Origin: an uncultured Rhodobacterales bacterium
Lineage (GTDB): Bacteria > Pseudomonadota > Alphaproteobacteria > Rhodobacterales > Rhodobacteraceae
Direction: 5' to 3'
Assembly: GCA_903873585.1 (NCBI GenBank)
Contig: CAIQOV010000010.1
Span: forward strand, 1-50,380
DNA: 50,380 nt
Shown: positions 28,640-47,706 of the stretch, in pieces
How the letters are laid out: each line of letters begins with the position of its first letter
Numbering within the stretch: position 1 is the stretch's first letter
Notes under the pieces: generated by a model
What the model was told of the DNA's origin: nothing
Database searches by the model: none
The model's input: the letters and a program-made list of their open reading frames with translations, nothing else
Made by a program: the position numbers and the translations under genes

Positions 28640-28695
28640 ATTGACCAAGCAAGAGCGCCGCAAATAGACGGCCCGATTCCAAAAACTGAGGGGGT

Positions 28696-30819: not shown

Positions 30820-32091
30820 CTATCCCTTGCGCTTGATCTGCACCACGTCCGCGCCGCCCGTGGGGGCCTTCATCGCCTCAGAAATCCGCCCGGCAATAAG
30901 CCCTGCCGCCGCCTTCAACGGGTCATTTGACAAGTGGGCATAGCGTTGCGTTGTCTTGGCTTCCGTATGTCCAAGAAGCGCACCGATTACCGGCAAGGAA
31001 GCCCCGCCCGAAGCCGCAACAGAGGCAAAGGCGTGGCGCAGATCATGGGGGCGCACGTCTGCCAGACCGGCCACCACGCGCACCGCGTTCCAAGACTTCG
31101 CGATATTGACCAAGGGCGTTTCCGCGTCTTTTGTTCTGCCGCCCCGGATCACAAAGCCCTTGCCATTTTCGGGCCGTTCAGCCCCTGCGATCACCTCAAG
31201 TGCGGGCGCGGGAAGTTGCACGATCTTTTTGCCGGTCTTGGAATCAGGGAGGTTTGCAACGCCCGCTTCTATGTCCAGATATTCCCAGCGCAGGCCCAAG
31301 ACTTCGCCACTGCGCATCCCCGTGAAAATTGCCAGCCGCAGGGCCCGAATGGCCTCTGCATTGGCCCTAACCTTCTGCACTTTCCCGCGCTTGTCCGTGA
31401 AGGTCAGGGCCTGATGTTCTGCGCGGATAAGCACCTCGCCCAAGACGGCAAATTCTTTGGCTGATAAGAAGCGTTCGCGCGAGGTTTCTTTGAACCGCTC
31501 AACCCGAATGCACGGATTCGAATGGCCGGGCCGATAACCCCAAACTTCCGCCAAGCTGCAAGCCTTTGAAAGTGCGGCAAGCGCCCGGTTTGCCGTGGTT
31601 GGGCTTTCCGATAGGCCCGAATGAAAGCGGGCAACGTCGGTTCGCGCCAGCTCTGCCGCCTTAAGCTTGCCCAGCGCTGGGCGAATAACCCGTTCCACCA
31701 GATCGGTCACTGCCGCTTGGGTGCTGGGCTTGTTTCGAACCTTAACGTGGTCCTTAAGGTATTTGTCCAACAGTTCTGAAACCGTGGGAGCCTTGCGCTG
31801 ATCTTCCCGCACCCCTGCCGGATCACCACCTTGCGCAACGTCAGCCGCCCAGCGCCGGGCAATATCACGCGCTTGGTCCGGGGTAAGACTGCCATGGTTG
31901 CCGATAAGCGCCCAACGAACACGCCCGCTTCGCCCGCCGCCAACCCGATACTTCAACAGATAGACCTTTCGGCCCTGCGGATACACGCGAACCCCAAAGC
32001 CGGGAACCTCCGTGTCCCATGCAACAAAGCGCTCAGCCTTGGGCTTAAGCGCGTCAACCATCACCTTCCCGATTCTCTTCTTTTCGGCCAT
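30820..32091 (-). CDS. P4-type tyrosine integrase
   Basis: Site-specific recombinase of 423 aa: N-terminal arm-binding domain of the DUF4102 type (about 1-100, VDALKPKAERFVAWDTEVPGFGVRVYPQGRKVYLLKYR), core-binding domain (about 105-200), catalytic domain with a complete active site: R260 (FTGMRSGE), K285, H349-x2-R352 (PHDLRH), H375 (LLGH) and nucleophile Tyr384. ATG 32091 is preferred to a TTG three bases upstream. It lies at the right end of the element, 177 bp inside attR, and is transcribed away from it. The 11-bp arm-type repeats lie 18-60 bp ahead of its start, so it may regulate its own expression. Confidence 0.92.
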   Translation of the reverse strand: MAEKKRIGKVMVDALKPKAERFVAWDTEVPGFGVRVYPQGRKVYLLKYRVGGGRSGRVRWALIGNHGSLTPDQARDIARRWAADVAQGGDPAGVREDQRKAPTVSELLDKYLKDHVKVRNKPSTQAAVTDLVERVIRPALGKLKAAELARTDVARFHSGLSESPTTANRALAALSKACSLAEVWGYRPGHSNPCIRVERFKETSRERFLSAKEFAVLGEVLIRAEHQALTFTDKRGKVQKVRANAEAIRALRLAIFTGMRSGEVLGLRWEYLDIEAGVANLPDSKTGKKIVQLPAPALEVIAGAERPENGKGFVIRGGRTKDAETPLVNIAKSWNAVRVVAGLADVRPHDLRHAFASVAASGGASLPVIGALLGHTEAKTTQRYAHLSNDPLKAAAGLIAGRISEAMKAPTGGADVVQIKRKG

Positions 32092-32108
32092 CAAAAGCCC
32101 CCATTTGT

Positions 32109-32580: not shown

Positions 32581-33633
32581 ATGCGCAGCATCCTTTTCGC
32601 CTTGGCCTTTGCAGTTTGTGCCCCCGCAGCCTTGGCAGAGCCACTTTCGGTTCACACTGTCACCGCCCGTTTGACCAGCCTGCCGTCAGAGGTGGCGCTG
32701 ACCGGCACGTTGCAAGCCGTCAACGCCTTTCCCGTGGCCTTCCCCCAAGGTGGGCGCGTGATTTCTATTGTCGTGCAAGAGGGTGACGTGGTGGTGGCAG
32801 GCCAAGACCTTGCGCGGGTTGATCCGACGCAGGCCGACGCCGCGTTGCGCGCGGCCTTGGCGGGGCTTGACGGCGCAGACGCCGCCCTGCGTGAGGCGCT
32901 GCAGGCCAATGACCGCGCCACAGGTTTGCTGAAAAGCGGGGCGGGCACGCGGGCCGATGTTGACACCACCACCAAGACCCTATTCGCCGCCCAAGCCAGC
33001 CACGACCAAGCCGCAGCGCAGGTTGCCAAGGCGCGTACGGTGCAAGACAACACCGTGCTGCGCGCGCCCACCGATGGCACGGTCACGGCGCGCTGGGCCG
33101 ATCCGGGCGATGTCGCCAATCCGGGGCAAAGGGTTTTAACCATCGCCGCCAGTGGCGGGCTGAAAGGCGTGTTCAACGCACCCGACGGTGTGGACCTTGA
33201 GGTTCTCTTGGGCCACCCCGTGACCATGACGCCGATTGACCAGCCCGACCTGACCCTGACCGGCACGATCACCGAGGTTTCGCCTCTCGTTGATCCTCAT
33301 ACCGGCGCGGTTGTGGTCAAGGCCAAGCTGGATGCCGATGCGCCCGCAGGCGTGGTGTTTGGCACGGCCGTTGTGGGCCGCCTGAACGTGCCTCAACCGC
33401 CCGCCATCACCTTGCCATGGGCCGCGCTAAGTTCGGCAGCAGGCCAGCCTGCGGTTTGGAAGGTAGACCCAGCGGCGCTGCGCGTTGCCCAAGTGCCCGT
33501 CACCGTCAGCGCCTATGGCGGCGATACGATCACGCTGTCGGGCGGGGTGACGGAGGGGGATATTGTGGTCACCGATGGCTCGCAGCTTTTGTTTCCCGGC
33601 CGCAGCGTGGCCTTGATGGAAAAGGGTGAGTGA
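32581..33633 (+). CDS. RND efflux system periplasmic adaptor subunit (first)
   Basis: Membrane-fusion protein of the HlyD/AcrA type, 350 aa. Signal peptide (MRSILFALAFAVCAPAALA), lipoyl-like half-motif FPQGGRVISIVVQEGDVVVAGQDLARVDPTQ, a short alpha-helical hairpin (about 80-150), the second lipoyl half VLRAPTDGTVTARWADPGDVANPGQRV, and beta-barrel domains. It links the inner-membrane pump to an outer-membrane channel. Its TGA overlaps the ATG of a second adaptor gene. Confidence 0.9.
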   Translation: MRSILFALAFAVCAPAALAEPLSVHTVTARLTSLPSEVALTGTLQAVNAFPVAFPQGGRVISIVVQEGDVVVAGQDLARVDPTQADAALRAALAGLDGADAALREALQANDRATGLLKSGAGTRADVDTTTKTLFAAQASHDQAAAQVAKARTVQDNTVLRAPTDGTVTARWADPGDVANPGQRVLTIAASGGLKGVFNAPDGVDLEVLLGHPVTMTPIDQPDLTLTGTITEVSPLVDPHTGAVVVKAKLDADAPAGVVFGTAVVGRLNVPQPPAITLPWAALSSAAGQPAVWKVDPAALRVAQVPVTVSAYGGDTITLSGGVTEGDIVVTDGSQLLFPGRSVALMEKGE

Positions 33634-34706
33634 TGCGCTTTCTTAGCTTGATCTTCGCCCTGCTCGCCCATCCCGCCTTTGGGCAAACCCAAACGCCCGT
33701 GGTCGATGCGCCGCGCCCTGTCGTGTCGCAGATCGTCACCCTAGGGGCGGCCCAAACCCGCAGCTTCACCGGCACGGTGGAAGCGCAAGTGACCAGCACG
33801 CTGGCTTTTCTGACCCTTGGGCGCGTTGCGACCTTGGCGGTGGCCACGGGTGACACGGTGGCGAAAGGCGCGGTTCTGGCGACATTAGACCAAGTCACCC
33901 TAGATGAGGATTTGTCCGCCGCCCAAGCCGCCCTGCAAGGCGCTACCGCGCGGGGGCTGTTTGCCCAGCAAAGCTTTGATCGCGTGCAAGAATTGGCCAA
34001 ACGCGGTGTGGCTTCGTCGGCACAGCAAGAACAAGCGCTTGCAGCGTTAGATACGGCCAAGGCGGGCGTTGTTGCCGCACAGGCCGATCTGGCCCGCGCC
34101 ACGGATGCCGCCAGCTACAGCGCCCTCATCGCGCCGATGGATGGGGTGGTGACGGCGACCTTGGTCGATCCGGGCACGGTTGTGTCCGTTGGCACCCCGA
34201 TCTTAACGCTTGCGGGGCTAAAAGGCCGCGAGGCGGTGTTGGATGTGCCGCCCGAATCCCTGTCGCTGATGCACTTGGGCGATGGGTTTGCGGTGACAGG
34301 CCGTGGCAGCGCGGCCATCAGCGGCCAACTGGTGCGCATTGATCCTTCGGCAGGTACCGGCACCCGCAGTCGGCGCATTCACCTAAGCTTGGCTGATCCA
34401 CCGCCCACCTACCGTCTGGGCAGCCTGATTTCGGCGCGCTTGGCAGCGCAAAGCCTGTCGGTGATCACAGTGCCGCAAACGGCCCTGACGGGCGCGCAAG
34501 ACGCCCCGCAGGTCTGGCGCGTGGGCGAGGGGCGCAAGGTTGCCCGTGTGTCTGTGACCCTAGGTGCCGCTTTAGATGACCGCGTGGTCGTGACCAGCGG
34601 CCTAAGTGCGGGCGATGAAATCGTGGTGCGCGGGGTGAACGCGCTAACCGAAGGGCAAACAGTCGGGGCCGCTATAAGCCTCATTGGCGACGAGGGGGCA
34701 AACTGA
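33633..34706 (+). CDS. RND efflux system periplasmic adaptor subunit (second)
   Basis: A second membrane-fusion protein, 357 aa from the ATG at 33633, with signal peptide (MRFLSLIFALLAHPAFGQ), SFTGTVEAQVTSTLAFLTLGRVATLAVATGDTVAKGAVLATLDQ, hairpin domain, and ALIAPMDGVVTATLVDPGTVVSVGTPILTLAGL. It is clearly diverged from the first one, so this is an old duplication or a hetero-adaptor pair. AAAGGGTGAG precedes the start; it overlaps both neighbours by one base, so all three genes are coupled. Confidence 0.9.
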   Translation: MRFLSLIFALLAHPAFGQTQTPVVDAPRPVVSQIVTLGAAQTRSFTGTVEAQVTSTLAFLTLGRVATLAVATGDTVAKGAVLATLDQVTLDEDLSAAQAALQGATARGLFAQQSFDRVQELAKRGVASSAQQEQALAALDTAKAGVVAAQADLARATDAASYSALIAPMDGVVTATLVDPGTVVSVGTPILTLAGLKGREAVLDVPPESLSLMHLGDGFAVTGRGSAAISGQLVRIDPSAGTGTRSRRIHLSLADPPPTYRLGSLISARLAAQSLSVITVPQTALTGAQDAPQVWRVGEGRKVARVSVTLGAALDDRVVVTSGLSAGDEIVVRGVNALTEGQTVGAAISLIGDEGAN

Positions 34707-37700
34707 TGCGCTTTAACCTGTCAGACTGGGCGCTGCGCCATAAGTCGATGATCTGGTATCTGATGCTTGTTTCGGTCGTTGCAGGGGCCTTTGCCTATAC
34801 ACAAATGGGCCGCGAGGAAGACCCCTCTTTCACTGTCAAAACCATGATCATCCAAGCCGCCCTTCCGGGGGCCACGGCGCAAGAAACCGTCACCCAAGTC
34901 ACCGAGCGCATCGAAAAGAAGCTGCAAGAGCTTGAGAACCTGAAATTCACCCGCTCGGAAACCGCGCCCGGTGTGGCAACGGTTTATGTGGAACTGACCG
35001 CCGAAACCAAAGCCCCCGCCGTGGCGGCCACATGGCAGCGCGTGCGCAATATGATGGGCGACATCAGCCACGACTTTCCTAAAGAGTTCAAAGGCTTCGC
35101 CTTTAACGACAACTTCGGCGATGTCTTTGGCAATATCTACGCCTTCACCTATGACGGCTTCACCCCATCCGAGGCGAAGCGTTGGGCCGAAACCGTGCAA
35201 GACGCCGTGTTGCAACTGGGCGATACGGGCAAGGCTGATCTGGTCGGCACGCAAGACCCTGTGATCTATCTGGAGTTTTCCGCCCGCAAGCTGGCCTCGC
35301 TGGGCTTAGATGCGGCGGCGGTGCTGAACACCCTGTCCAGCCAGAACGCCATTGTGCCGTCTGGCGTGATCCGCACGGCGGGCGAAAAGGTGACGGTGCG
35401 GGTGTCGGGCAGCTTTACGGGGGCCAAGGAACTGGCGGCCACCACATTGCGGGTGGGTGATACGTTCTTTGTCTTGTCTGATGTGGCAACGGTGACGGCG
35501 GGCTATGTAGACCCCGCCAAGGCGCTGTATCGCTACAACGGCAAACCCGCCATCGCGCTGATCGTGGGGATGCGGGCCGGTGCGAATATTTTGCACTTCG
35601 GGGCAGCTTTGGACCATGTGATGGAACAGATGGCCCCGACCCTGCCCGTTGGCATTGACCTGCACAAAGTGGCCGATCAACCCACCGTGGTGGAAGAATC
35701 GGTCAACCACTTCTTGCGCGCTTTGGTCGAGGCGGTGGTGATCGTTCTGGGCGTCAGCTTTGTATCGCTTGGCGTGCGGGCGGGCTTGGTGGTGACCATG
35801 ACGATCCCCTTGGTTCTGGCCCTGACCTTTGTGGTGCTGGATATGATGGGCATCACCCTTCAGCGCATTTCGCTGGGTGCCTTGATCATCGCCTTGGGGC
35901 TGTTGGTGGATGACGCGATGATCTCGATTGAAACCATGATCTCACGGCTGGAAGTGGGCGAAAGCCTGCAAAAGGCGGCGAGTGCGGCGTGGTCGTCGAT
36001 CGCCTTTCCCATGCTGACAGGCACTTTGGTGACGATGGCAGGGTTTATTCCGATTGGCCTGAACACCTCTTCGGCGGGGGAATATACGATCTCGCTGTTT
36101 TATGTGATCGTGATCGCGCTGCTGTTGTCTTGGGTTGTTGCGGTGCTGTTCGCGCCGATCTTGGGCTATACTTTCCTGCCCAAAACCATGAAACACCACG
36201 CCGCCGAACCGGGCTGGGTGCGCCGCGTTTTCCACGCGCTGTTGCGCGGGGTGATGCGGGCAAAGTGGCTGACCGTGGCGGTGACGGTGGCGATGTTTGC
36301 AGGCTCGCTTTACGGGCTGCGCTTTGTGGAAAGCCAGTTCTTCCCCACATCTGACCGGCCTGAGCTGATCATCGACATCACCCTGCGCAAGAACGCCAGC
36401 TTTCAAGCCACGGATGACGTGATGACCAATCTGGACACATGGCTGACCACCCGCAAAGAGGCGTCTTATTGGAGCACCTATGTCGGCCGCCCCGCCCCGC
36501 GCTTTATCTTGGCGTTTGACTCCGTCACCCCGTCTGACAATTTCGGCCAAATCGTCGTGATGACGCCCGATTTGGCGGCGCGTGATTCTTTGAAGGCGGC
36601 GGTCGGCGATTATGCCAAAACCCTGCCGGGGGTCGATCTTTACGCGAAGTTTCTGGAACTGGGGCCGCCGGTTGGCAAGCCGGTGCAGTACCGCCTGTCA
36701 GGGCCTGATGTGAACAAGGTCAGCGATCTGGGCCGCGACCTGTCAGCCGTGCTGGCCAGCGATGCGCGGTTGGGCATGATTACCCAAAATTACAACGAAC
36801 CCGCCCGTGTCGCGCGCGTGGTGTTAGACCAAGACAAGCTGCGCCAATTGGGTGTCACGCAAACCGATGTGGCGCAGGCGTTGTATACGTTGTTTGACGG
36901 CGTGACTGTCACCGAACTGCGCGATGGCAAAACGCTGATCGACGTGGTGGCGCGGGGCAGTGCGGGGGATAGGTCATCCATCACCTCGTTGCAGAACCTG
37001 CAATTGGGCAATGCGGCGGGGCAACCCATCCCGCTCACCTCTTTCGCCAGTCTGGAATGGACGCTGGAACAACCCCTGATCCAGCAACGCAACCGCGTGC
37101 CAACCGTGACGGTGAAAGCCGCCGTGGTGACCAAAGACCAACCCGCCACCATCACCAAAGACCTGCAACCCGCGATTGACGCTTTCGCCGCCACCCTGCC
37201 GCAAGGCTATAGCATCGAGGTGGCAGGCTCTGCCGAAAGCAGTGCCGAAAGCCAAGCGCCGATCATCGCGGTCGTGCCGATCATGCTGTTGATTATGGTC
37301 ACACTTGTCATGGCCCAAATGCAAAGCTTCCGGCGCAGCTTTATCGTGCTGGCGGTAGCCCCCTTGGGGATGATCGGCGTGGTGGGGGCTTTGCTTTTAT
37401 CCGGCGCGCCTTTGGGGTTTGTGGCCATTCTGGGCGTGCTGGCCTTGGTGGGCATTTTGATTCGCAATTCGATCATCTTGGTGCACGAGATTGAAGAACT
37501 GCGCCATAAAGGCTTGGCGGTGTGGAATGCGGTGTTTGACGCCACCGACAGCCGTGCCCGCCCGATCTTGCTAACGGCGGCCGCGGCCAGCTTGGCGCTG
37601 ATCCCGATCTCACGGCAAGTGTTCTGGGGGCCGATGGCCTATGCGATGATCGGCGGCATTATTGTGGGCACTTTGCTGACCTTGCTGTTCGTGCCCGCGC

Positions 37701-37735
37701 TCTATTGCTTGGTGTTTGGGGTGAAGCGGCCCTAG
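34706..37735 (+). CDS. RND efflux transporter, inner-membrane pump subunit
   Basis: AcrB-superfamily proton antiporter of 1009 aa. N-terminal TM1 (KSMIWYLMLVSVVAGAFAYTQMGREEDPSF), two large periplasmic domains, and the transmembrane bundles around 330-480 and 860-1000 with GLLVDDAMISIETMISRLE (proton-relay Asp pair), and GILIRNSIILVHEIEE in the second half. It is closer to the GREEDP group of shorter RND pumps than to classical drug pump AcrB; substrate unknown. No outer-membrane channel gene is in the operon, so a TolC-type protein encoded elsewhere is presumably used. Confidence 0.92.
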   Translation: MRFNLSDWALRHKSMIWYLMLVSVVAGAFAYTQMGREEDPSFTVKTMIIQAALPGATAQETVTQVTERIEKKLQELENLKFTRSETAPGVATVYVELTAETKAPAVAATWQRVRNMMGDISHDFPKEFKGFAFNDNFGDVFGNIYAFTYDGFTPSEAKRWAETVQDAVLQLGDTGKADLVGTQDPVIYLEFSARKLASLGLDAAAVLNTLSSQNAIVPSGVIRTAGEKVTVRVSGSFTGAKELAATTLRVGDTFFVLSDVATVTAGYVDPAKALYRYNGKPAIALIVGMRAGANILHFGAALDHVMEQMAPTLPVGIDLHKVADQPTVVEESVNHFLRALVEAVVIVLGVSFVSLGVRAGLVVTMTIPLVLALTFVVLDMMGITLQRISLGALIIALGLLVDDAMISIETMISRLEVGESLQKAASAAWSSIAFPMLTGTLVTMAGFIPIGLNTSSAGEYTISLFYVIVIALLLSWVVAVLFAPILGYTFLPKTMKHHAAEPGWVRRVFHALLRGVMRAKWLTVAVTVAMFAGSLYGLRFVESQFFPTSDRPELIIDITLRKNASFQATDDVMTNLDTWLTTRKEASYWSTYVGRPAPRFILAFDSVTPSDNFGQIVVMTPDLAARDSLKAAVGDYAKTLPGVDLYAKFLELGPPVGKPVQYRLSGPDVNKVSDLGRDLSAVLASDARLGMITQNYNEPARVARVVLDQDKLRQLGVTQTDVAQALYTLFDGVTVTELRDGKTLIDVVARGSAGDRSSITSLQNLQLGNAAGQPIPLTSFASLEWTLEQPLIQQRNRVPTVTVKAAVVTKDQPATITKDLQPAIDAFAATLPQGYSIEVAGSAESSAESQAPIIAVVPIMLLIMVTLVMAQMQSFRRSFIVLAVAPLGMIGVVGALLLSGAPLGFVAILGVLALVGILIRNSIILVHEIEELRHKGLAVWNAVFDATDSRARPILLTAAAASLALIPISRQVFWGPMAYAMIGGIIVGTLLTLLFVPALYCLVFGVKRP

Positions 37736-37765: not shown

Positions 37766-40105
37766 TTAGCCCAATATCGCGTCAACACTTGGCAGGGTGT
37801 GACGTGCCGCGCGCCATTCGGCGGGTTTTAGCAGATGCTGGATCAACCGCTGTTCCAGCGTCTTATACACCTCTTGCATGATTGGGTCGTTGGTTAGCCC
37901 TGTGGTGGAAGGCTTGGCCATAGTCATCGCGGCATTTGCCTCAAAGAAGGTGAATTTGCCGTCTGCGACTCCGATGTCTGCACCGAAAAAGTCCAAAGGC
38001 ACCCGCGCCCCGATCTCATCGAGCATGGATTTAAAGGCGCTGTTGTCCAAAAGGGCATCGACGTTGCGTTTGATGCTGGCATGGCGTTCTGGCGTTAGCG
38101 ATCCGACCGTGCCAGTGATCAGCCAATCCGGTTCATCGCGAAAGGCGCGAATGGCCCACTCACCGCCAACAAAGCTGGCGCGCACCTTGCAAAAGCGCCC
38201 GTTGGCAGAGCGGGTGTCATGAAACTGCGTCATGAAATGCCATTTGCCATAGCCATTTGACAAGGCCAACCGCGCCCAATCTTGCGGCCCGTCAATCTTG
38301 TGCAAACCCTGACCGGTTTGCGAGCCTTCGGGGCGCACCAGAACCGGATAGGCAAAGCCGTGGGCGGCAAAGGTGGCGGCAAAGCTGTCGGGGCTGTCGG
38401 CCTTAAAGCGCACGCAGCGCGGCACGGTCAGGTTTTGCACGCCCTGCAAAAGCTGCGCCATCAGATCGCGGCGTGACATGGCAACAGCGCGAGGGTGGTT
38501 GAAAATCGGGCTGGTCGCACCGAAAGCCTGATCCAGACTGCGCAGGGCTTTGCGATATTCGTCGGCGTCGGCGCAAAAGTTCACCACCCACGCCACATTG
38601 TCATGCGTGACCGGTTTGGTCGGTGGAAACCAAACCGTGCGGGCCACTTCTTCCATCCGTTTCATCAGACGGTCGGGCAGGATCATCGTGTTGGGCACAT
38701 GAAATTGCGGCGTACCACTATCGCCCACCGTTGTGGTGATCTGCCCATTGTCGGGAATGGCGCAAAAGATAAGGCCCTTGCGGGTTTCAGAAACAGAGGA
38801 GATCACGGTGCGTCCTTGCAACAAAGGTGTCGGGGGCAGGCGGGGTGTAAAGGCGACGGGAAGGCTTTTGTAGCCGGAAACGAAGTTCGACCGCAGGCGA
38901 ACAGGGTCGCCCGCAACATGGATATCGGGCAGATGATCCAGAAGTTCCGTCAAGATCAAGGCCACCTCGGCCTCGCTATAGCGCCAGCCAAGGCAGTGGT
39001 GCGCCCCTGCGCTAAAGGCCAAATGCGCCGGGCAGCCACCGGCTTGAAAACGATCAACCCGGAATTTGTCGGCGTCAGGCCAAATGGCGGTGTCGCGGTT
39101 GGCGGCTTCGAACCAGACCACGACTTTATCACCAGCGGCAATCTTTTGCCCACCCAGAACCGTGTCGACCACTGCCGTGCGGCGAAAATGCTTTACAGGG
39201 CTAGACCAGCGCAGAATTTCTTTGACAGCAGAGGGGATCAACTGGCGGTTCTGGCGAAGTTTTTCAAATTCGTCTGGGTGATTGCTCAGCGTTATCAGCA
39301 TGGTAGATAGGGCGTGCTGCGTGGTTTCGATGGTTGCGACCAGAAAGATCCCCACATTGGCCAGTACTGTGGCATCATCAATCGGCGCGCTTTCGAACGT
39401 TACCTGCCTTAGACGGCGCAAAATGCCATCTTGGCCAGAGGCTGCATCCCGATCAAGCAGGGCCAGAAAGTAGCGGTCAAATTCCTCCATTTGAAGGCGG
39501 CGTTCGGCGGGGGGCAGTTGCAGATCGGGGTCGTCATCGCCCATCATGATCTTGACCCACTCGGCCAGCATGCTGCCGTCACTTGCCGGAACATCCAGCA
39601 TGTCGGTCAACAGGCCTACGGTGAAGGGCAAGGCCACCTCGGCCACGAAATCGGCCCGCCCTTTGGGCGCAATCGCGCCAATCAGGCTGGATGCGCGCGC
39701 GCGCAAACGCGGCATGGCGCGGTGCACGGCATCGGCTTCAAACAGACTGCGCATAGAGCGGCGAAACTCGGTGTGGTCGGGCGCATCCATGCTAAGGAAC
39801 AAGGGGCGCGGGTTGGCGCTGACGTCTTGCGCATCAAAGATCCGAAAGCCGCCGCGACGAAAATCTGACGAGAAGATGGCAGGGTTTTTCACCACCTCTG
39901 ACACCAGATCATAGTCTAGAACTGACCAGAACCCGCGCCCGTCCACCTCGGCGTTCCATTGCACCGGCGCGTCTTGCCGTAGCTTTTGGTAAATGGCCGC
40001 AAGATCGCCGCGCAAATGCAGGTCGGGGTCTTTCAGGTCAGTGGCAAGGTCACGGTTCGCCACTGATCTGCGGCGCAGGGTTGAAGGGGCGTTCTCGTCA
40101 ACCAT
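37766..40105 (-). CDS. Cytochrome P450 fused to an ATP-grasp domain
   Basis: 779 aa with two enzymes in one chain. Residues about 20-420 are a cytochrome P450: SMDAPDHTEFRR (105-116), I-helix ATIETT (257-262), EILR (296-299), and the haem loop FSAGAHHCLG with ligand Cys371. After a proline-rich linker (about 420-440), residues about 441-765 form an ATP-grasp-like domain: HPRAVAMSRRDLMAQLL (537-553), the ATP-loop-like YPVLVRPEGSQTGQGL (586-601) and the metal-site FFEANAA (720-726; E722, N724). There is no reductase domain. ATG 40105 overlaps the upstream gene's stop by 8 bases. The predicted chemistry is oxidation plus ATP-dependent ligation or phosphorylation; the substrate is unknown. Confidence 0.88.
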   Translation of the reverse strand: MVDENAPSTLRRRSVANRDLATDLKDPDLHLRGDLAAIYQKLRQDAPVQWNAEVDGRGFWSVLDYDLVSEVVKNPAIFSSDFRRGGFRIFDAQDVSANPRPLFLSMDAPDHTEFRRSMRSLFEADAVHRAMPRLRARASSLIGAIAPKGRADFVAEVALPFTVGLLTDMLDVPASDGSMLAEWVKIMMGDDDPDLQLPPAERRLQMEEFDRYFLALLDRDAASGQDGILRRLRQVTFESAPIDDATVLANVGIFLVATIETTQHALSTMLITLSNHPDEFEKLRQNRQLIPSAVKEILRWSSPVKHFRRTAVVDTVLGGQKIAAGDKVVVWFEAANRDTAIWPDADKFRVDRFQAGGCPAHLAFSAGAHHCLGWRYSEAEVALILTELLDHLPDIHVAGDPVRLRSNFVSGYKSLPVAFTPRLPPTPLLQGRTVISSVSETRKGLIFCAIPDNGQITTTVGDSGTPQFHVPNTMILPDRLMKRMEEVARTVWFPPTKPVTHDNVAWVVNFCADADEYRKALRSLDQAFGATSPIFNHPRAVAMSRRDLMAQLLQGVQNLTVPRCVRFKADSPDSFAATFAAHGFAYPVLVRPEGSQTGQGLHKIDGPQDWARLALSNGYGKWHFMTQFHDTRSANGRFCKVRASFVGGEWAIRAFRDEPDWLITGTVGSLTPERHASIKRNVDALLDNSAFKSMLDEIGARVPLDFFGADIGVADGKFTFFEANAAMTMAKPSTTGLTNDPIMQEVYKTLEQRLIQHLLKPAEWRAARHTLPSVDAILG

Positions 40106-40685
40106 GGCTTGGCTCCTGTGGAAGGGCAAACAGGCTGACGGTGCCGTAACTTGCCCCGTCCAAGCCAAAGCGCAGGGTGACCAATGGCCCACGGGTGCGC
40201 AAGATTTCCAGCGACAGGATGCGCCCTGCTAAGGCGTCGGGCAAGGGCCAGCGCGTCAACCCAAGGGCCGCGACCTGCCAGCGCCGTCCGGGGTAGACCG
40301 AAGCACCGCCGCAGCGGATGATGGCGATCAACTGATCCCAAAAGCCCACACCGTTGACCAGCGGGCACAAGAACTGCCCGTCACGCAGCACGGCAGAGGA
40401 GATAAACTCTTCCTCGGCCACCTCTTGCAGCACTTGCAGCGAGCCAACCTGCGGGTCGGGCACAAAAACCCAAGTTTGCGGCCCAGAGGGGGCGGAAAGT
40501 TTCAGCTCTGCCAAGATGTCGTCGTTTGCGAAACTGTCGGCTTGCCGCCAATATCCGGCCTGCGTGATCAGCTTGCGAAACCTGACTTCGAACGAGGTGG
40601 CTGTGGGCGGTACGGGGGCCACGGCCAGCATATCGGCGGCACGAAGATAGCTGCGCGATCCGCGTGTGAAGTTGACGGTGGTCAT
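40098..40685 (-). CDS. Protein of unknown function in the P450 cassette
   Basis: 195 aa from the ATG at 40685 (MTTVNFTRGSRSYLRAADM), with GAGG seven bases upstream. Mixed alpha/beta, no signal peptide, no membrane segments; it contains RFRKLITQAGYWRQADSF, QTWVFVPDPQVGSLQVLQEVAEEEFISS and two beta-rich C-terminal stretches (GRILSLEILRTRGPLVTLRFGLDGASYGTVSLFALPQ). I do not recognise a family. It follows the GNAT-like gene by 2 bp and overlaps the P450-ATP-grasp gene by 8, so it is an integral part of the operon. Confidence 0.7.
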   Translation of the reverse strand: MTTVNFTRGSRSYLRAADMLAVAPVPPTATSFEVRFRKLITQAGYWRQADSFANDDILAELKLSAPSGPQTWVFVPDPQVGSLQVLQEVAEEEFISSAVLRDGQFLCPLVNGVGFWDQLIAIIRCGGASVYPGRRWQVAALGLTRWPLPDALAGRILSLEILRTRGPLVTLRFGLDGASYGTVSLFALPQEPSHG

Positions 40686-40687
40686 GG

Positions 40688-41389
40688 TCAAACCTCGCTC
40701 AGGGTTGTGCCAAGATGGCCAAAGGCCGCAACAAAGGGAAAGAAGGCCAAAACATGATCCTCGCCGCTGCGGCGCAGGCCGGTCGCGGCCCAGCCCTGCG
40801 CAAACAAGTGGCGCTGTGCGTCAAGGTCGCCAACCGGCACGTCGGTGCCCGCCCCCTCGGCGCGCTTGCCTTGTACCCAAACCCCGCCATAGCCCACATA
40901 ATTCATAGAGGTCGCATCGCGACGCGTGCCCACCAGCACACCGCCGCTGCGCAACACATTGGCCACCGACGCCAGATTGGCCGTGTCGATCAAGCCCACC
41001 ACATGCGCGCCGCCCTTTGTCGTCTCTATCTGCCCGCGCAGGGCCAGCATGCGCGCCATGATCAACCGACCGCTGATCTGCGGGGCAATCGCTGACCCCA
41101 TGCCTTCAAATGCCGTCCCTGAGGCAAAGCCAAAGGCGCGGCTTAACGGATGGTCTGCCGCCATCAGCCGCGAAAACGAATAGCCCTGCAATTGCCCGCC
41201 CACAAAGGCCCCCACCGCCACACCCGGTGTTTGGCCTGCCAAGACCTGCGCAAAGTCTGCGGGCTGGCGTTGGGCCAAAAACCCGTGCGGGGTGGCTGCC
41301 TGAACCTGCCGATACAGCGCCCACACGGCATCGGCGTGATCCGGCCCTAGGGCCACAATCGTGCTGTCTTTGTCGCCAAGCGCTGTCAT
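40688..41389 (-). CDS. GNAT-like acyltransferase
   Basis: 233 aa. The N-terminal part reads VALGPDHADAVWALYRQVQAATPHGF, and the centre AIAPQISGRLIMARMLALRGQIETTKGGAHVVGLIDTANLASVANVLRSGGVLVGTR follows the GNAT motif A/B pattern (acetyl-CoA loop, then the N-x-x-S helix). The glycine loop is not classical, so acetyl-CoA use is probable but not certain. It overlaps the TPR-sulfotransferase gene by 4 bases (ATGA) and is followed by the unknown 195-aa gene. Confidence 0.65.
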   Translation of the reverse strand: MTALGDKDSTIVALGPDHADAVWALYRQVQAATPHGFLAQRQPADFAQVLAGQTPGVAVGAFVGGQLQGYSFSRLMAADHPLSRAFGFASGTAFEGMGSAIAPQISGRLIMARMLALRGQIETTKGGAHVVGLIDTANLASVANVLRSGGVLVGTRRDATSMNYVGYGGVWVQGKRAEGAGTDVPVGDLDAQRHLFAQGWAATGLRRSGEDHVLAFFPFVAAFGHLGTTLSEV

Positions 41390-43473
41390 GACGCTTGCAC
41401 CAATGGCCCCAGCGTTTGCAGCAACGGGGTTAGGTGGCGTTCATACTTGCGCCACTTCTGGACCGAGGTGGTGTAAACCGCCTCACGCACCTGCGTTACA
41501 CTGGCCGTGCGCACGCGGCGCTTTTGATCTTGAAAGCGCAGGCAGGCATCTGTCCATTCCAGCCCGCAGGCGGCCAGCATCTTGCGGGCGTTGCCTTCGG
41601 TATCATCGACAAGATCTTCGTAGCGCACATGGTGGATCGCATCGCTTGGCAAAACCTGCGCCCAATGGTCCATCACGCGCTGATAGGCGCGGTAGTAGCG
41701 GCCCAGTTCGACCAGATCATAGCTGTGGTATTGGCTGCGATCAAACAGGCGGGTGAAGTTTGACAGGCAGGTATCAACCGGATCTCGCATAACATGGATG
41801 ATGCGGGCATTCGGCAATAAGGCGTGGATCAGACCCGCATATTGAAAATTGCAGGGCATTTTGTCGGTAAAGTGCGGATGCGTGGCGGTGTTTTCAGCAC
41901 TGGCGGAAAGATAAGCGACAAAGCGGCGCGCCACTTCGGCGGGAGCCCCCTTGATCAGGCCATGCACGGGGGGCGATGTGTCAGTGGCCATCATGGGCAG
42001 CAAGCGGGGCAGGAAGGGCAACTCTCCTGCGCCGACCACATCAGGGTGGCTGGCCAGAATGGATTCGGTCATCGTCGTGCCAGAGCGCGGCATCCCGATC
42101 ACAAAAATCGCACGCTGATCGGGCAGCGCTTCGCCGCGCAGCCGGTCAAGTGCGCTGCGGTCAAAGGTTGCGATCACCTGATCAATCGCCGCATCATAGG
42201 CGTCAGCGCTATACTTGACCTTGGCGCGCTTTAGCGCCGCCCCCTGCGCAAAGGCGGCAAAAGCGGCGTCATAGCGCCCCAGATCGTCGTAGCATTTGCC
42301 CAAGGCATATAGCATGGCACAGGCTTTATCGGGCAAAACATTGCCCATCTGAGCGATGTGCTGTTCTAGCTCTGCCAAGTCAGGATCTTCGGGCTTGACC
42401 TTGCGCAGTTTCAATTCGGCCAGCAAAGCGCCGACAAAGTCGGGCTTGGCCAAACGCGCTGCGGCAAAGTCAGCGTTGGCGGCGTCGGTGTCGCCCATTT
42501 CCATCGCCAAATGCCCACGCGCGATCAGCGCGCCGATGCCCTTCGGCTCCATCGCAATCGCGCGGTCAAACAAGGCCCGTGCTGTGTCGATGCGGCCTAG
42601 ATCAGCCTCGCATTGGCCCACCTGATACAGGGCGGCGGCACTGTTTGGGTCAAGCTCTTGCGCGCGCTTGGCTTCGAGCAAGCTAAGCTCGGACTGGTTT
42701 TTCTTATACAACACCTCTGCCAGCCCCAAATGGGATGCGGCAACACCCGGTTTAAGCACCATGGCGGTGCGAAAGCCGATTTCGGCAGGGTCAAGATTGT
42801 CGAGCGCCAGCCAAGCCCGTGCCATAGCGCGGTGCCATTCGGGGTTGTTGCGGCATTGCGCTTCGCGCGGGCGCAACAGGTCAAGCGCCTCTTGCGGCTT
42901 TTCGCGGTCAACCAAGACGGTGGCCAGATTGCACAGGCCCTCGGTATAGGTCGCGTCGGCGGCCACGGCACGGCGGTAAAAGGTTTCCGACAGGGCCAGA
43001 TCTTCGCGCTTCAAAGCGATGCTGCCAAGATTGTTCAAAGCGCGCGCGGCGTTAGGGTCGACAGCGATGGCGCGCAACTGAGAGGCTTCGGCCTCGTCGT
43101 AGTTCTTTTGGTCATATAGGGCGATGCCCAGATTACAATGCGCAGCCACCAAGCCGGGTGCATGCAGCGCCGCGCGTCGCCCGCAGGCCACGGCCTGATC
43201 CAACTGCCCGCTCTGCCGCAACATTTCGCACAGGTTTGACAAGTATAGCCCATTGCGCGGCGCAAGGGTTGACGCGCGGCGCAGCGCTTTGATGGCCCCG
43301 TCCACATCCGCTTTGTGATGCAAGACGATGGCCATCAGATGATGCGCCGCGTGGGCGCGCGGTTCGGCCTTTAGAATGGCAAGCGCGAACTTCGCCGTGG
43401 CGGCATAATCTCCCCGCGCCTGCGCTGCATATGCCTCTTTCAGGGCTTGGGCCAACGAAAGCTGCACGTTCAT
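41386..43473 (-). CDS. TPR-repeat sulfotransferase
   Basis: 695 aa. Residues about 1-420 are tetratricopeptide repeats, about ten of them (GDYAATAKFALAILKAEP, KNYDEAEASQLRAIAVDP, GRIDTARALFDRAIAMEP and others). Residues 450-690 are a PAPS-dependent sulfotransferase with the 5'-phosphosulfate loop VIGMPRSGTTMTESIL (PRSGTT 462-467) and the 3'-phosphate motif VMRDPVDTCLSNF (R563, S571), similar to tyrosylprotein sulfotransferases. The TPR part would bind a protein partner or substrate. It starts 42 bp after the IalB-family gene and is the first gene of the overlapping four-gene cassette. Sulfation target unknown. Confidence 0.88.
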   Translation of the reverse strand: MNVQLSLAQALKEAYAAQARGDYAATAKFALAILKAEPRAHAAHHLMAIVLHHKADVDGAIKALRRASTLAPRNGLYLSNLCEMLRQSGQLDQAVACGRRAALHAPGLVAAHCNLGIALYDQKNYDEAEASQLRAIAVDPNAARALNNLGSIALKREDLALSETFYRRAVAADATYTEGLCNLATVLVDREKPQEALDLLRPREAQCRNNPEWHRAMARAWLALDNLDPAEIGFRTAMVLKPGVAASHLGLAEVLYKKNQSELSLLEAKRAQELDPNSAAALYQVGQCEADLGRIDTARALFDRAIAMEPKGIGALIARGHLAMEMGDTDAANADFAAARLAKPDFVGALLAELKLRKVKPEDPDLAELEQHIAQMGNVLPDKACAMLYALGKCYDDLGRYDAAFAAFAQGAALKRAKVKYSADAYDAAIDQVIATFDRSALDRLRGEALPDQRAIFVIGMPRSGTTMTESILASHPDVVGAGELPFLPRLLPMMATDTSPPVHGLIKGAPAEVARRFVAYLSASAENTATHPHFTDKMPCNFQYAGLIHALLPNARIIHVMRDPVDTCLSNFTRLFDRSQYHSYDLVELGRYYRAYQRVMDHWAQVLPSDAIHHVRYEDLVDDTEGNARKMLAACGLEWTDACLRFQDQKRRVRTASVTQVREAVYTTSVQKWRKYERHLTPLLQTLGPLVQAS

Positions 43474-43515: not shown

Positions 43516-44013
43516 TCACCAAGCAGCGGCGGTCAAGGCGTCGTTGAGACCTTCCAGCTTCATGCCCGCGGTGACGGTCTTGCCGGCAATGTCAAATTGC
43601 AGCGACAAGTCGGTGCCCGCCCGCAACGCCACCACGGTGGCATCGTCAAGTTCCATCGAGGCGACACAGCCCTTGGCAAAGCAAGCGCGCAGCGGCACGT
43701 CAATCGGGTCAGCGCCGTCAACCGATGTCTTGACGCCGGCTTGGATGTTCAAGCCCAAGGGCAACATGGCCGACATCATAAAGGGCGCATCCGCCTTGGG
43801 GCGCGAAATGCGCAGGTCAACCACGACACGCTTTTTGTCCGACGACATAACGGTCGTTCCAAAAGCGCAAAGCGTTTTGTCTTGGCCCACAGCGTTGCAC
43901 TGAAACACCCAACCGCCAAAGGCTTGGCCAACTTGCAGGTCGGCCGTTTGGGCACTTGCTGCACCTGCTGATGCCGCTGCCAGCACAAAAGCCAAAGCAA
44001 ACTTGCTGATCAT
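43516..44013 (-). CDS. Invasion-associated locus B (IalB) family secreted protein
   Basis: 165 aa with a signal peptide (MISKFALAFVLAAASAGAASAQ, cleavage after ASA) and an IalB-like body: VGQAFGGWVFQCNAVGQDKTLCAF, RVVVDLRISR, the central MLPLGLNIQAGVKTSVDG and VPLRACFAKGCVASMELD. Two cysteine pairs probably form disulfides in the periplasm. Many alphaproteobacteria have several such proteins; the molecular role is unclear. AAGGA precedes the ATG. It lies between the autotransporter and the sulfotransferase cassette on the same strand. Confidence 0.85.
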   Translation of the reverse strand: MISKFALAFVLAAASAGAASAQTADLQVGQAFGGWVFQCNAVGQDKTLCAFGTTVMSSDKKRVVVDLRISRPKADAPFMMSAMLPLGLNIQAGVKTSVDGADPIDVPLRACFAKGCVASMELDDATVVALRAGTDLSLQFDIAGKTVTAGMKLEGLNDALTAAAW

Positions 44014-44115: not shown

Positions 44116-47100
44116 TTAGAACGCGAGTTGCAGACCACCGCCAACCGTGGTGCCGGACACATCATCCGACCCGATCGGGCGCGAGGCTTCGATACTCAGG
44201 CTCAACCCTGTCGAAAGGCTGGCGCTATAGCCGATGGACAGTGTCTTAGTCGTGGTGTCAGCGGTAAAGCCAGACACATTTTCTTGATCACCAACCATCG
44301 TGACATCCACGCTGTCAGAGCTGCTCAGCGCGCGCTTTGTCACCGACAGGTTGGCATTCAAGCTGCCCATCCCCAACGACTTCTCCACATTCAGATCGAA
44401 CTGGCTTTCCATGATCCCGAACGACTGTTCTGCCACCGATGCCAAAGCTGCCGTTTCATCGCCGGTTTCGCTGTAAGCGTCAATCCGGCCATTGGTGTAG
44501 CGCAATGTCACACCCGGAGAGACAGTTACCCCAAAGCCCAGCTTGAAGTGGCCCGATGCCGCGGCTTGCGCCGTGATATAGCGGCTGGTGTAGTCGCCCG
44601 ATGCTTGATCAATGCCGCCCACAACTAGGTTGTTGTTGGCCCAACGATCATACGAATTGCTCATCGTACCCGCCGTCAACCCGCCGCCGAAGGTAAAGGA
44701 CTTCGACTGCCCAGCAACGCTGACACCGGCATAAGCCCCGTCATAAGTTGTGTCAGACGAGGTCATGTAGAAGCTTGACATCGTCGCTTCACCCGACTGC
44801 CCGCCGATGCCAAAGCCCACAGCCAAACCGCCGTCGGTCTTCATCGTGCCGCCCGCGCTGAGGGTCGAGGTCGTCACAGAGCGATCCAGCGTGCCGCCGC
44901 TGATGTTCGAGTAAGCGCCAATATCAGTCAAACCGTCGCCGTAAATCCCCATAAACAGGCCAACAGGGTCCGCAGTGATCGGTGATTCTCCAGTGCCGCT
45001 GTAGGTCATGTTCGAATGGGTCGCGATACCGTAAGCCTTGAACTTGTCCGAGGCCAAAGCAGCTTCGGTCTGGCTTGCCTGAACCGAAGAACTTTGGTCG
45101 CTGGCATCCAGCATGCTTTCACGCTGCGCCGCAAACTGCGACGAATCGATGGTGGTGAACTGCCAAATCGCCGACTCTGCTTCGTGACCCATGAACACGG
45201 TCGTGCCGAACTGGTTGTCGGCATAGTACAGACCATCGACATTGTCGAAATAATAATCCGACCCGTTGGCGTCTTCGCCATAGACAGTCCAGTTGATCGA
45301 CGATCCCGCCGTTCCAAGCACGTCAAGATGCGTCAGCGCTTCGTAATCGCCGTTTGCTTCGCCAGACACGATGATCTCACCTTCGATGAAACCGCCGCTG
45401 GCCAACACAACTTGGCTGAATTCGTCATTTTCACCGTCAAGATGGGTTTGCGCGTAAACCGCGATGCCCTCAGGATGGCCTTCATTGTCAGAATTGTTCG
45501 TCGCAACAATTTTGCCGGTATTAAAGAATATACCAGGGGTGTAGGAAGTCGCACCATCCACAAACACGCCAATGGCCTGCCCATCGTCGCCATACGCATC
45601 AGCTTGAATTGTGCCGCTGTTCAGCACCAAGCCCGAATTGCCCGCCACAGCAATGCCCGCAGCCACCACATTGGTTGCGCTGGCGTTGATTGTGCCAGTG
45701 TTGGCAACCAGACCCATCACGTTCGCCATAACACCAATGCCGGCTGCGCCGTAAAGACCGGTCAGATCAGACGTCGTCTCAACATTGGCGCTGACATTGA
45801 TCTCGCCAGTGTTCACGATTGCGCTGTAGTAATTGACGTAAGCGCCCATGCCAACAGCGCCGTTCAGGTTCGTGTCGAAGGAGCCCGTACCGTCATGCGG
45901 CCCAACCGTCTCGGGTGCCCAAGCGTATGCGGTTGCGTTAATCGTGCCGCTGTTTGTGGTCAGTGTTCCAAAGTTAAAATAGGACAGCGACCCAACAGCC
46001 AAAGCACCTGCGCCCGACGCATCAACCGAAATCGTGCCACTCAGGGTGGTTTCCCTGAAAGTGGGGTTCTCCTGATTCACATTGAACATCGTCAAGACGC
46101 CGTCAGCATGGGCCACGCCGCCATCTTGCGCATCTGCGCTTACAGTGATCGTACCTGTGGCTTTAAACACAGCACCTGAGTCGCTTACAATGGTCAACAC
46201 ACCGTCTGCCAAAGCATCGCCACCGGACTCGCCGTTAATATGGGATGTGGTGGCGCTTACGTTGATGTCACCGCCCAAAGTCACCGTGCCGTCGCTTAGG
46301 CCCAAGAATACGCCATCTGCCCAAGCATTTGCTCCGCCGTCGGCTGAAGCAATCGCACTCAACGTGGCGGTGTCAGTGGTTTCGATCACAGATCCACCCG
46401 GCGCATACATAACGTAAACGCCATCAGCCGCCGCAGTGCCGCCGTAGATTTCTGGCGTGGTGACCAAAGCAGTGGCCGTCACATCGCCGCCAATCGTCAG
46501 CGTGCCATCCAGCAAGCTCGCGCCAGAACCGGCATACCAGCCTAGCCCGTCATTATAAATCCCAGTGTTATCGTACCCACCGTAAATTCCATCCGAACTG
46601 CCAATTTCGATGCCGTAAGCAACAGCATCGCCGCCATCCGAACCAATTGCGGTAACATCAATCGAACCGGTCGTGCTGATGGTTGAAGCGTCGTCCACAA
46701 TACCTTCGACCCAGATACCATGCGCAAGGGCGAAGCCGCTTGTGCCATCCGCGCCGTGCAAGGTTGCGCGAACGGTCAAATCGCCGGTGCTGGTGTTGTC
46801 GATCGAGCCGTTGCTCATCGTGGTCGCGTAAATGCCGGTCGCGTAAGCATAGGCATCGGGGCCTTCAAACACCCCATAAGCCGTCGCGGTCGCGCTGATG
46901 TCGCCAGAGTTGAGGATGTCGCCAGCGGTTTCGCCATAGAAGGCAAGGTAGTCGTTACTTTCAGAGGTGTAGGTTGACGTATACCCTTCTTTAATGCCCG
47001 TTGCATAAACACTGGCCGCCGTGCCGGTGCCAGAGACCGAAATCGTGCCTGAGTTCGAGATGACCGCATCATCGTCGCTGCCCAAATTCGACAAGATGCC

Positions 47101-47706
47101 GGCAACTTGAACGCTTTCAAAAGCCGACCCATGAGCCGTCACGGTGATCGTGCCTGCGTTCGTGATCTGGCTGTCTGCGAGCATTCCGCCAGACTCCCCG
47201 CCGTACACAAGGATACCGAAGCCTTCCATCGTGTGAGCGTCTTCGCCGGTGTAATCGGTGTTGTCAGACAGGTCGACGGTGATCGTTCCACCCACCGCGT
47301 TGGTTATCACCCCCGCATCGTAAGCGTCGCCCGAAGTATCGCCGAGATAGTCTGCTGTAACGATACCTGCGCCGAAGGTGTCACCCAAACCACTCGTCGT
47401 CGTAACGTTCAGCTCGCCCGAGTTTTCGACAGTGCCTGTGTAATATGTAGCCAAATAGACGTCCGATGTGTCCGGGTTCGTCCCGAAGTCATCCACAATT
47501 ATGTGTCCGGAATTTGTAATCGTCAGGTCAACTGACGATCCCACATCCCAACGATAGCTGGTCCCGTGGTTCAACACATCCGCCGTCGCCATCGCCCCCG
47601 AAGCAACCAAAGCCACCACGGAAACCGACGCCAAGTTCGGGGCCACGCTTGCCACGCGGCCTTTCCATTTCGTCATCCGTCCGCCCAAGGCAAAATATTT
47701 CTTCAC
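44116..47706 (-). CDS. Autotransporter (type Va secretion) with beta-helix passenger
   Basis: 1196 aa. N-terminal extended signal sequence (MKKYFALGGRMTKWKGRVASVAPNLASVSVVALVASGAMA), a long passenger (about 41-900) made of repeated N/S-G-T-I-x-V-x-A strands interrupted by glycine- and aspartate-rich turns, as in beta-helices, then a C-terminal autotransporter beta-barrel (about the last 270 residues) ending in GGGLQLAF with a terminal Phe for outer-membrane insertion. I chose the GTG at 47706 because GGAG lies 8 bases upstream; ATG 47676 would shorten the signal, and the frame is open up to 47781. Passenger function is unknown; adhesion is a guess. Confidence 0.88.
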   Translation of the reverse strand: MKKYFALGGRMTKWKGRVASVAPNLASVSVVALVASGAMATADVLNHGTSYRWDVGSSVDLTITNSGHIIVDDFGTNPDTSDVYLATYYTGTVENSGELNVTTTSGLGDTFGAGIVTADYLGDTSGDAYDAGVITNAVGGTITVDLSDNTDYTGEDAHTMEGFGILVYGGESGGMLADSQITNAGTITVTAHGSAFESVQVAGILSNLGSDDDAVISNSGTISVSGTGTAASVYATGIKEGYTSTYTSESNDYLAFYGETAGDILNSGDISATATAYGVFEGPDAYAYATGIYATTMSNGSIDNTSTGDLTVRATLHGADGTSGFALAHGIWVEGIVDDASTISTTGSIDVTAIGSDGGDAVAYGIEIGSSDGIYGGYDNTGIYNDGLGWYAGSGASLLDGTLTIGGDVTATALVTTPEIYGGTAAADGVYVMYAPGGSVIETTDTATLSAIASADGGANAWADGVFLGLSDGTVTLGGDINVSATTSHINGESGGDALADGVLTIVSDSGAVFKATGTITVSADAQDGGVAHADGVLTMFNVNQENPTFRETTLSGTISVDASGAGALAVGSLSYFNFGTLTTNSGTINATAYAWAPETVGPHDGTGSFDTNLNGAVGMGAYVNYYSAIVNTGEINVSANVETTSDLTGLYGAAGIGVMANVMGLVANTGTINASATNVVAAGIAVAGNSGLVLNSGTIQADAYGDDGQAIGVFVDGATSYTPGIFFNTGKIVATNNSDNEGHPEGIAVYAQTHLDGENDEFSQVVLASGGFIEGEIIVSGEANGDYEALTHLDVLGTAGSSINWTVYGEDANGSDYYFDNVDGLYYADNQFGTTVFMGHEAESAIWQFTTIDSSQFAAQRESMLDASDQSSSVQASQTEAALASDKFKAYGIATHSNMTYSGTGESPITADPVGLFMGIYGDGLTDIGAYSNISGGTLDRSVTTSTLSAGGTMKTDGGLAVGFGIGGQSGEATMSSFYMTSSDTTYDGAYAGVSVAGQSKSFTFGGGLTAGTMSNSYDRWANNNLVVGGIDQASGDYTSRYITAQAAASGHFKLGFGVTVSPGVTLRYTNGRIDAYSETGDETAALASVAEQSFGIMESQFDLNVEKSLGMGSLNANLSVTKRALSSSDSVDVTMVGDQENVSGFTADTTTKTLSIGYSASLSTGLSLSIEASRPIGSDDVSGTTVGGGLQLAF

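Follow-up and report, generated by a model that had tools for sequence, protein, structure and literature searches.

A conserved gene island of Rhodobacteraceae whose enzymes, a TPR-sulfotransferase among them, probably decorate the autotransporter encoded beside them

Four tightly spaced minus-strand genes on a contig of an uncultured Rhodobacterales bacterium (Rhodobacteraceae; GenBank assembly GCA_903873585.1, contig CAIQOV010000010.1) combine a tetratricopeptide repeat (TPR)-sulfotransferase with a GNAT-like protein, a 195-aa protein and a cytochrome P450 in frame with an ATP-grasp ligase, and raise the question of what such an assortment of enzymes might act upon. The stretch analysed here—the window—is this entire contig (C10; 50,380 nucleotides), one of 55 in a 3.2-Mb genome. 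On balance, we favour the reading that the island makes and decorates one cell-surface autotransporter (AT), with sulfation as the core and the remaining enzymes likewise acting on its passenger.

Gene layout and conservation of the block

An open reading frame (ORF) check confirmed the four-gene run at positions 37,766 to 43,473, with junctions of −4, +2 and −8 bases, as an earlier note made from the letters of this DNA had described it. The unit itself proved larger than those four genes: upstream on the same strand lie an IalB-like gene and then an AT gene (42 bases from IalB to sulfotransferase, 102 from AT to IalB). While the earlier note had recognised no substrate gene, the adjoining AT offers a candidate. 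The corrected block comprises six frames, which become seven genes when the P450 and ATP-grasp parts are taken separately:

44116..47706, minus strand: autotransporter, candidate substrate (PF03797 on the last 300 aa; composition)
43516..44013, minus strand: IalB-like protein, 165 aa (PF06776, 8.3e-23; signal peptide by eye)
41386..43473, minus strand: TPR-sulfotransferase, 695 aa (PF13469, Sulfotransfer_3, 2.1e-49, plus TPR families)
40688..41389, minus strand: GNAT-like protein, 233 aa (structure model and Foldseek; 4-base overlap with the sulfotransferase gene)
40098..40685, minus strand: 195-aa protein (ATG at 40685; 2-base gap to the GNAT-like gene)
38810..40105, minus strand: cytochrome P450 (PF00067, 2.5e-28; FSAGAHHCLG heme-binding stretch)
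37766..38806, minus strand: RimK-like ATP-grasp ligase (profile match to 3vpd; frame continuous with that of the P450 in this assembly)

The joined P450–ATP-grasp frame starts with the ATG at 40105, ends at 37766 and overlaps the 195-aa gene by 8 bases. The AT frame of 1,221 aa opens at 47781, with a GTG at 47706 (GGAG upstream) and an ATG at 47676 as other possible starts. Its last 300 aa matched PF03797, the C-terminal beta-barrel family of classical (type Va) autotransporters, over the cut-off (1.3e-15), and the whole protein gave no Pfam match up to E 0.1. On reading the sequence, the passenger appears repetitive; its composition is rich in Gly, Thr, Ala and Ser and poor in Lys and Arg.

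When the P450–ATP-grasp protein was run as query in a pattern scan over 84,980 species, a scan that reaches close relatives only, two other loci came up: L011 and L012, both titled Rhodobacteraceae metagenome-assembled genomes (MAGs). L012 is the same locus as one in G208, a member of the window's genus, and L065 is a duplicate of L012. Order and strand of AT, IalB, TPR-sulfotransferase, GNAT, 195-aa protein, P450 and ATP-grasp are identical in all three loci (the IalB gene is present in L012, where the ORF caller missed it); L011 additionally carries an FkbM-type methyltransferase gene after the sulfotransferase and an alpha/beta hydrolase gene before the P450. Comparing the ORFs of these loci, we found matches inside the block and none outside it at E 1e-3, a comparison that for L011, which ends at its AT, covers the downstream flank. 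Because the order is kept in both relatives while no gene outside the block matches, the recurrence of the block goes beyond chance.

The view of a coordinated cassette outside the usual nonribosomal peptide synthetase (NRPS) and polyketide synthase (PKS) classes thus holds in three of three loci, and neither NRPS/PKS nor carrier domains were matched among the block proteins in Pfam or NCBIfam. Rather than lying scattered among relatives, an arrangement that the earlier note had set against a joint pathway, the genes stand together in L011 and L012, though the full set is very rare (three genomes). Two of 16 genomes of the genus, several of them incomplete, carry the 195-aa gene, and the AT was found in exactly the same two; a 195-aa profile with a limit of 0.001 matched a single genome of 394 sampled from the family, the window's own. 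In L012, the AT (2582-6056) and the P450 (10089-11405) are broken by an in-frame stop and frame breaks, reflecting either decay or MAG error.

The TPR-sulfotransferase and its linkage to autotransporter genes

The TPR region of the sulfotransferase falls within about residues 1–440, followed by a 3′-phosphoadenosine-5′-phosphosulfate (PAPS)-type sulfotransferase domain at about 440–695. The seven best PDB sequence matches of this domain are protein-tyrosine sulfotransferases (2e-13 to 8e-9), with polyketide-linked and heparan sulfotransferases ranking behind. A PAPS-binding P-loop and a catalytic Glu are present in the alignment to 8w5z, 9wwe and 3ap1; this Glu, which we take to be the catalytic residue of TPSTs, is kept in 28 of 28 relatives and the P-loop in nearly all. 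By sequence, the domain is thus protein-tyrosine-sulfotransferase-like, and tyrosine sulfation itself is predicted. TPST1 and TPST2 are its closest solved relatives, and the catalytic Glu column aligns; however, these are Golgi enzymes without TPRs, and the Arg two residues after their Glu is a Pro in the window enzyme.

The 191 sampled Rhodobacterales genomes searched with this protein yielded 25 places besides the window, and we inspected the surroundings of all of them. An AT barrel lies 0.2–1.8 kb away in each of the four closest (42–45% identity over at least 663 residues; three genomes):

L188 (G797): AT barrel 272 bases from the sulfotransferase
L189 (G858): AT barrel 219 bases from the sulfotransferase
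L190 (G858): AT barrel about 1.7 kb off, with another barrel where the fetched stretch ends
L191 (G800): AT barrel 0.3-0.4 kb off, the AT frame broken

None of the 21 places at 29–39% identity has an AT barrel within the stretch fetched, usually about 9 kb on each side and less at contig ends. The L188 pair is adjoined by HlyD and ATP-binding cassette (ABC) transporter genes.

Of the 29 records matched in a plasmid search, we inspected the ten whose query cover reached 80%. An AT is annotated near the sulfotransferase gene in five of them: Pacificitalea manganoxidans pDY25-E (AT, IalB, AT and sulfotransferase in a row), a Thalassospira plasmid (AT, then sulfotransferase) and three plasmids of Enterobacteriaceae. 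The Lelliottia and Enterobacter sp. 638 plasmids read sulfotransferase, GT8 glycosyltransferase, AT in a row; the Kluyvera plasmid reads sulfotransferase, GT8, a small hypothetical gene and AT, with another AT upstream of an insertion sequence. The three regions are as follows:

L205, 7890-13938: TPR-sulfotransferase, GT8 and AT
L206, 7950-14163: TPR-sulfotransferase, GT8 and AT
L210, 7950-14130: TPR-sulfotransferase, GT8 and AT

The Enterobacter gene found no match in 20,395 E. coli records (distant DNA mode). No AT stands near the gene in the other five plasmids, from Methylovirgula, Komagataeibacter (two), Cereibacter and Novosphingobium (no barrel among frames). In the Komagataeibacter plasmids (L208/L211, 6284-13798), the TPR-sulfotransferase gene lies by genes for a glycosyltransferase, a nodulation-type methyltransferase and a PIG-L deacetylase, along with an acyl-CoA dehydrogenase, a thioesterase and a GNAT, which together look like a sulfated glycan or glycolipid cluster.

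The ATs themselves share features. An N-terminal motif, GGRxxKWKGxVAS, is common to the ATs of the window, L011, L188, L189 and L190, and a Pacificitalea AT starts MTKWKGRAAS; in the window's AT, the region around this motif reads like a putative export signal. With a profile of the window-type barrel, the isolated barrels of L188–L191 and Pacificitalea were matched at 1e-16 to 1e-22; the whole long ORFs of L188–L190 and the Enterobacter barrel were not. The IalB-like gene keeps its place in L011 and L012 and, as noted, sits between two ATs on the Pacificitalea plasmid.

A tree built from 28 sulfotransferases places the 12 AT-linked rows in two clades, one of 8 rows and one of 4, both supported at 100/100. 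The AT-linked label needs two changes on this tree versus a shuffled mean of 9.3, and none of 500 shuffles was as low, although near-copies—the Lelliottia/Enterobacter pair and the two Komagataeibacter sequences—inflate this statistic somewhat. The tree takes in ten of the 21 distant places; those outside it were checked for barrels only. L198, whose gene the ORF caller missed, is left out of the tree and likewise showed no barrel. Linkage of a sulfotransferase clade to AT genes is thus recurrent in Alpha- and Gammaproteobacteria. All 12 AT-linked enzymes keep PRSGT[TS] and the aligned catalytic Glu, along with a later R[DN]P motif (RNP in L190, L191, Lelliottia and Enterobacter).

In the literature searched, we found no report of this pairing of AT and TPR-sulfotransferase, apart from TPR genes noted beside an AT on an Enterobacter plasmid: in the passages concerned, pENT638-1 carries the TPR genes Ent638_4265-4266 beside the hemagglutinin-like autotransporter Ent638_4267, and the TPR proteins are suggested to assemble the adhesin (PMC2869309). 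By plasmid and arrangement (the AT flanked by RelB genes), rather than by locus tags, Ent638_4265-4267 corresponds to L206. It shows the same sulfotransferase–AT pairing, though the word sulfotransferase is absent from the main text of that paper (PMC2869309); it differs from the window in having no P450 or ATP-grasp gene annotated.

A second TPR-sulfotransferase of the window genome (C37) has a type I secretion system about 3 kb away. We gave this adjacency no weight because the secretion locus of a congener has no such gene beside it.

The accompanying enzymes

Neither the GNAT-like nor the 195-aa protein matched Pfam or NCBIfam up to E 0.1. An AlphaFold2 (AF2) model of the former had a modest mean predicted local distance difference test score (pLDDT) of 58, with residues 8–130 good, and 45 of the 50 rows listed by Foldseek were titled acetyltransferase, AAC or GNAT (best 2.7e-6); in the confident part of its model, the 233-aa protein has a GNAT fold. 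The 195-aa protein is 57% identical in L011 and 73% in L012. In a PDB profile search its matches stayed at the level of chance, the best being a ribosomal protein at 0.03, and as a single query it matched at E 0.005–0.009 in four family genomes. AF2 from three sequences yielded a poor model (pLDDT 46); a hotdog-like fold, an idea formed by eye, was unsupported.

The solved relatives of the P450 are led by CYP125 and CYP153. L011 and L012 encode P450 and ATP-grasp separately, with a stop codon and about 30 bases between the genes, so the single protein of the earlier note gives way to two genes in both relatives. In the window, a length change and the loss of that stop let the frame run through the junction, and a GTG at 38806 with AAGGA upstream still keeps the ATP-grasp start. 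The separate genes of both relatives make the joined frame peculiar to this assembly; it is either a true fusion or an assembly fault.

By profile, the ATP-grasp protein resembles RimK/LysX (3vpd, 1.4e-6; 5k2m, 2e-4), with weaker matches to 7drm (0.009), 5ig9 (0.23) and 7m4s (0.64), which we take to be graspetide ligases. Unlike RimK/LysX and the graspetide-type ligases, it falls in a family of its own, in which some members are fused to TPR, TauD or a pyridoxal phosphate (PLP) decarboxylase-like domain. An E-x-N near its C terminus is present, and is lacking in P0014, a paralogue on contig C3. Counting the window's own, members were found in 26 of the 385 alphaproteobacterial genomes sampled (E 1e-10) and in 24 of 390 genomes of the order (E 1e-6). 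TPR proteins have been noted near some graspetide ATP-grasps, their role being described there as unclear (PMC8939145).

Across 52 loci of this family, partners of the ATP-grasp include TPR fusions, PLP decarboxylase-like proteins (six), methyltransferases (five) and TauD dioxygenases (four). L055 and L058 encode one protein reading TauD-TPR-ATP-grasp, and three of the four TauD cases have a secretion-type neighbour (type I secretion, RTX/cadherin or a very large frame):

L058, 8671-14300: TauD-TPR-ATP-grasp by a type I secretion ABC transporter and HlyD
L059, 7776-14707: unfused TauD and ATP-grasp by a cadherin/FG-GAP/RTX protein
L096, 1-9465: unfused TauD and ATP-grasp by a frame of >2,310 aa with no Pfam match
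L055, 8713-11025: TauD-TPR-ATP-grasp, no secretion-type neighbour seen

The L058 genome (G302) has three such ABC transporters over the curated cut-off. RTX repeat matches number six in the L059 genome (G334) and 142 in that of L096, so that the adjacency at L096 means little. A combination of oxygenase, TPR, ATP-grasp and large secreted protein recurs in this TauD subset, a lead only in view of the few cases and of how frequent RTX repeats are in some of the genomes. A general rule that the ATP-grasp family adjoins giant secreted proteins was rejected, most of the 52 loci being without one by the queries used.

Further loci of this family showed other neighbours. The window genome has a second ATP-grasp cluster (L013, 9494-15275, on contig C3 of G000) with two tandem ATP-grasps, one with a degenerate metal site, a methyltransferase and a CAT-like acyltransferase; an RTX-repeat protein is encoded nearby on the other strand. 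Methyltransferases related to that of L013 accompany the ATP-grasp in L112 (6064-7921), L114 (8340-10173), L115 (8386-10444) and L111 (7745-9627), and proteins that by eye look like PLP-dependent decarboxylases do so in L051 (fused), L057, L062, L064, L093 and L118.

A few kilobases downstream of the island (window 25456-32094), a phage-type integrase (30820-32094) and a DUF927 protein (25456-27312) are encoded, by the look of it an integrated element. An RND-type efflux pair, assigned by eye, converges on the end of the island (33630-37735).

Proposed mechanism, alternatives and meaning

How might these proteins work together? The enzymes of the island probably decorate the surface protein. 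The AT would be made in the cytoplasm, where the TPR domain of the sulfotransferase may hold the unfolded passenger while the catalytic domain moves sulfate from PAPS to its side chains, the acceptor most likely being a tyrosine hydroxyl, or else a hydroxyl or sugar added by another enzyme. In the window's lineage, the P450 may oxidise the same passenger, the RimK-like ATP-grasp may form an amide bond on it, and the GNAT-like protein may acylate it with the help of the 195-aa protein. Export of the AT would follow by Sec, perhaps with IalB helping in the periplasm, and the modified passenger would be displayed. The adjoining AT is the most likely substrate because the sulfotransferase clade and a sister-like second clade are AT-linked across two classes, and because the sulfotransferase domain is of the protein type. 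The earlier note's suggestion that the TPR domain holds a protein on which the cassette acts thereby gains support and a concrete candidate. For the P450, the GNAT-like, 195-aa and ATP-grasp proteins, a single line of evidence—the conserved, coupled gene order—points to action on the AT.

Several observations weigh against this reading. The full block is known from three genomes, two of one genus and two titled MAG; the window genome is itself split into 55 contigs, and the AT and P450 frames of L012 are broken. Nine of the 12 AT-linked loci are without P450, GNAT, 195-aa and ATP-grasp genes in the stretch examined, so these four may serve another purpose. The solved structures that rank first for the P450 bear the names of alkane and steroid hydroxylases rather than of protein-acting enzymes. 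Most of the 52 ATP-grasp loci have no close secreted protein by the queries used, and RTX repeats abound in some of the genomes concerned. As to the linkage itself, a further frame separates sulfotransferase and AT in L190, Lelliottia and Enterobacter are near-copies, and the plasmid sample is limited to the ten of 29 records at 80% cover or more. Tyrosines with at least three acidic neighbours number five in the window AT (one in the barrel region) and five in the L012 piece, and L011 has none. We infer sulfate on the AT, the residue carrying it, the cytoplasmic timing and the roles of the other proteins.

The acceptor might instead be a sugar, either an AT glycan or a surface polysaccharide. 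In the Kluyvera, Lelliottia and Enterobacter plasmids, the GT8 gene shares 4 bases with the sulfotransferase gene and has an AT after it; this overlap speaks for a sugar acceptor in these three, and the glycosyltransferase, methyltransferase and deacetylase genes beside the Komagataeibacter relatives lean the same way. However, no heptosyltransferase or glycosyltransferase domain scored over threshold among the window block proteins (PF11316 at a sub-threshold 0.044 in the ATP-grasp part), the two extra L011 genes gave no glycosyltransferase match, and none was seen by eye near the gene in L188–L191. Moreover, protein tyrosine is the substrate of the best solved relatives, and heparan sulfotransferases match far less well (0.002). 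We therefore regard sulfation of a sugar as a serious but rather unlikely alternative.

GNAT, ATP-grasp and P450 enzymes are usual in small-molecule pathways, and the block could build a sulfated, acylated and oxidised small molecule, such as a lipid or amino-acid conjugate, with the AT unrelated or merely co-regulated. The hydroxylase-like kinship of the P450, the alpha/beta hydrolase and FkbM methyltransferase inserted in L011, and the nine AT–sulfotransferase loci at which the other four proteins were not seen all fit such a pathway. Yet AT and IalB sit inside the conserved block in three of three loci, the sulfotransferase clade goes with AT genes also at loci lacking the other enzymes, its domain resembles protein-tyrosine sulfotransferases, and carrier, NRPS and PKS domains went unmatched in the block proteins, which together make a small-molecule product improbable. 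That the TPR protein serves the AT chiefly as chaperone or assembly factor, with a vestigial sulfotransferase domain, in line with the reading of TPR proteins as adhesin assembly factors in Enterobacter sp. 638 (as put forward in PMC2869309), is very unlikely in view of the P-loop, Glu and R[DN]P motifs kept throughout the AT-linked enzymes.

Decoration of the AT has precedents in part. The aah and tibC genes lie next to those of their autotransporters. AIDA-I with Aah and TibA with TibC are described as autotransporters with dedicated heptosyltransferases of the BAHT family (PMC4358343). Similarly, a modifying-enzyme gene adjoins an AT gene in the window, L011, L012 and nine further loci; here, in contrast, the enzyme is a TPR-sulfotransferase, joined in the window by P450, GNAT and ATP-grasp genes. 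In the RaxST-RaxX-RaxABC system of Xanthomonas, as the sources cited outline it, a tyrosine sulfotransferase is encoded with an exported polypeptide and export genes, RaxX being a precursor of 60 residues with a link to a putative type I system (PMC6637879, PMC4216712). The joint encoding of sulfotransferase and exported polypeptide is alike, but the partner in the window is an AT of >1,200 aa and the enzyme has a TPR region of roughly 440 residues; type I-like export genes were found neither among the block proteins nor, by the queries used, among the L011 and L012 frames. On the favoured reading, the island works like AT heptosylation and RaxST/RaxX and belongs to neither family.

More tentatively, and with rather less confidence than not, we propose a new kind of cargo for type V secretion, a class of ATs sulfated in the cytoplasm by TPR-sulfotransferases in Alpha- and Gammaproteobacteria, to which a Rhodobacteraceae branch would add oxidation, amide ligation and acylation as part of a wider alphaproteobacterial pairing of oxygenase, TPR and RimK-like proteins with giant secreted proteins.

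To our knowledge, bacterial protein sulfation is known mainly from RaxST/RaxX and autotransporter modification from heptosylation, and multi-enzyme tailoring of a full-size surface protein is not known to us from other systems. If the proposed decoration is true, the chemical repertoire of bacterial surface proteins would gain sulfation, in two proteobacterial classes and in part of the cases on enterobacterial plasmids; part of a vaguely annotated enzyme family would gain a function, together with a directly testable enzyme–substrate pair; and the extension by P450 and ATP-grasp would amount to multi-enzyme tailoring of a full-size surface protein.

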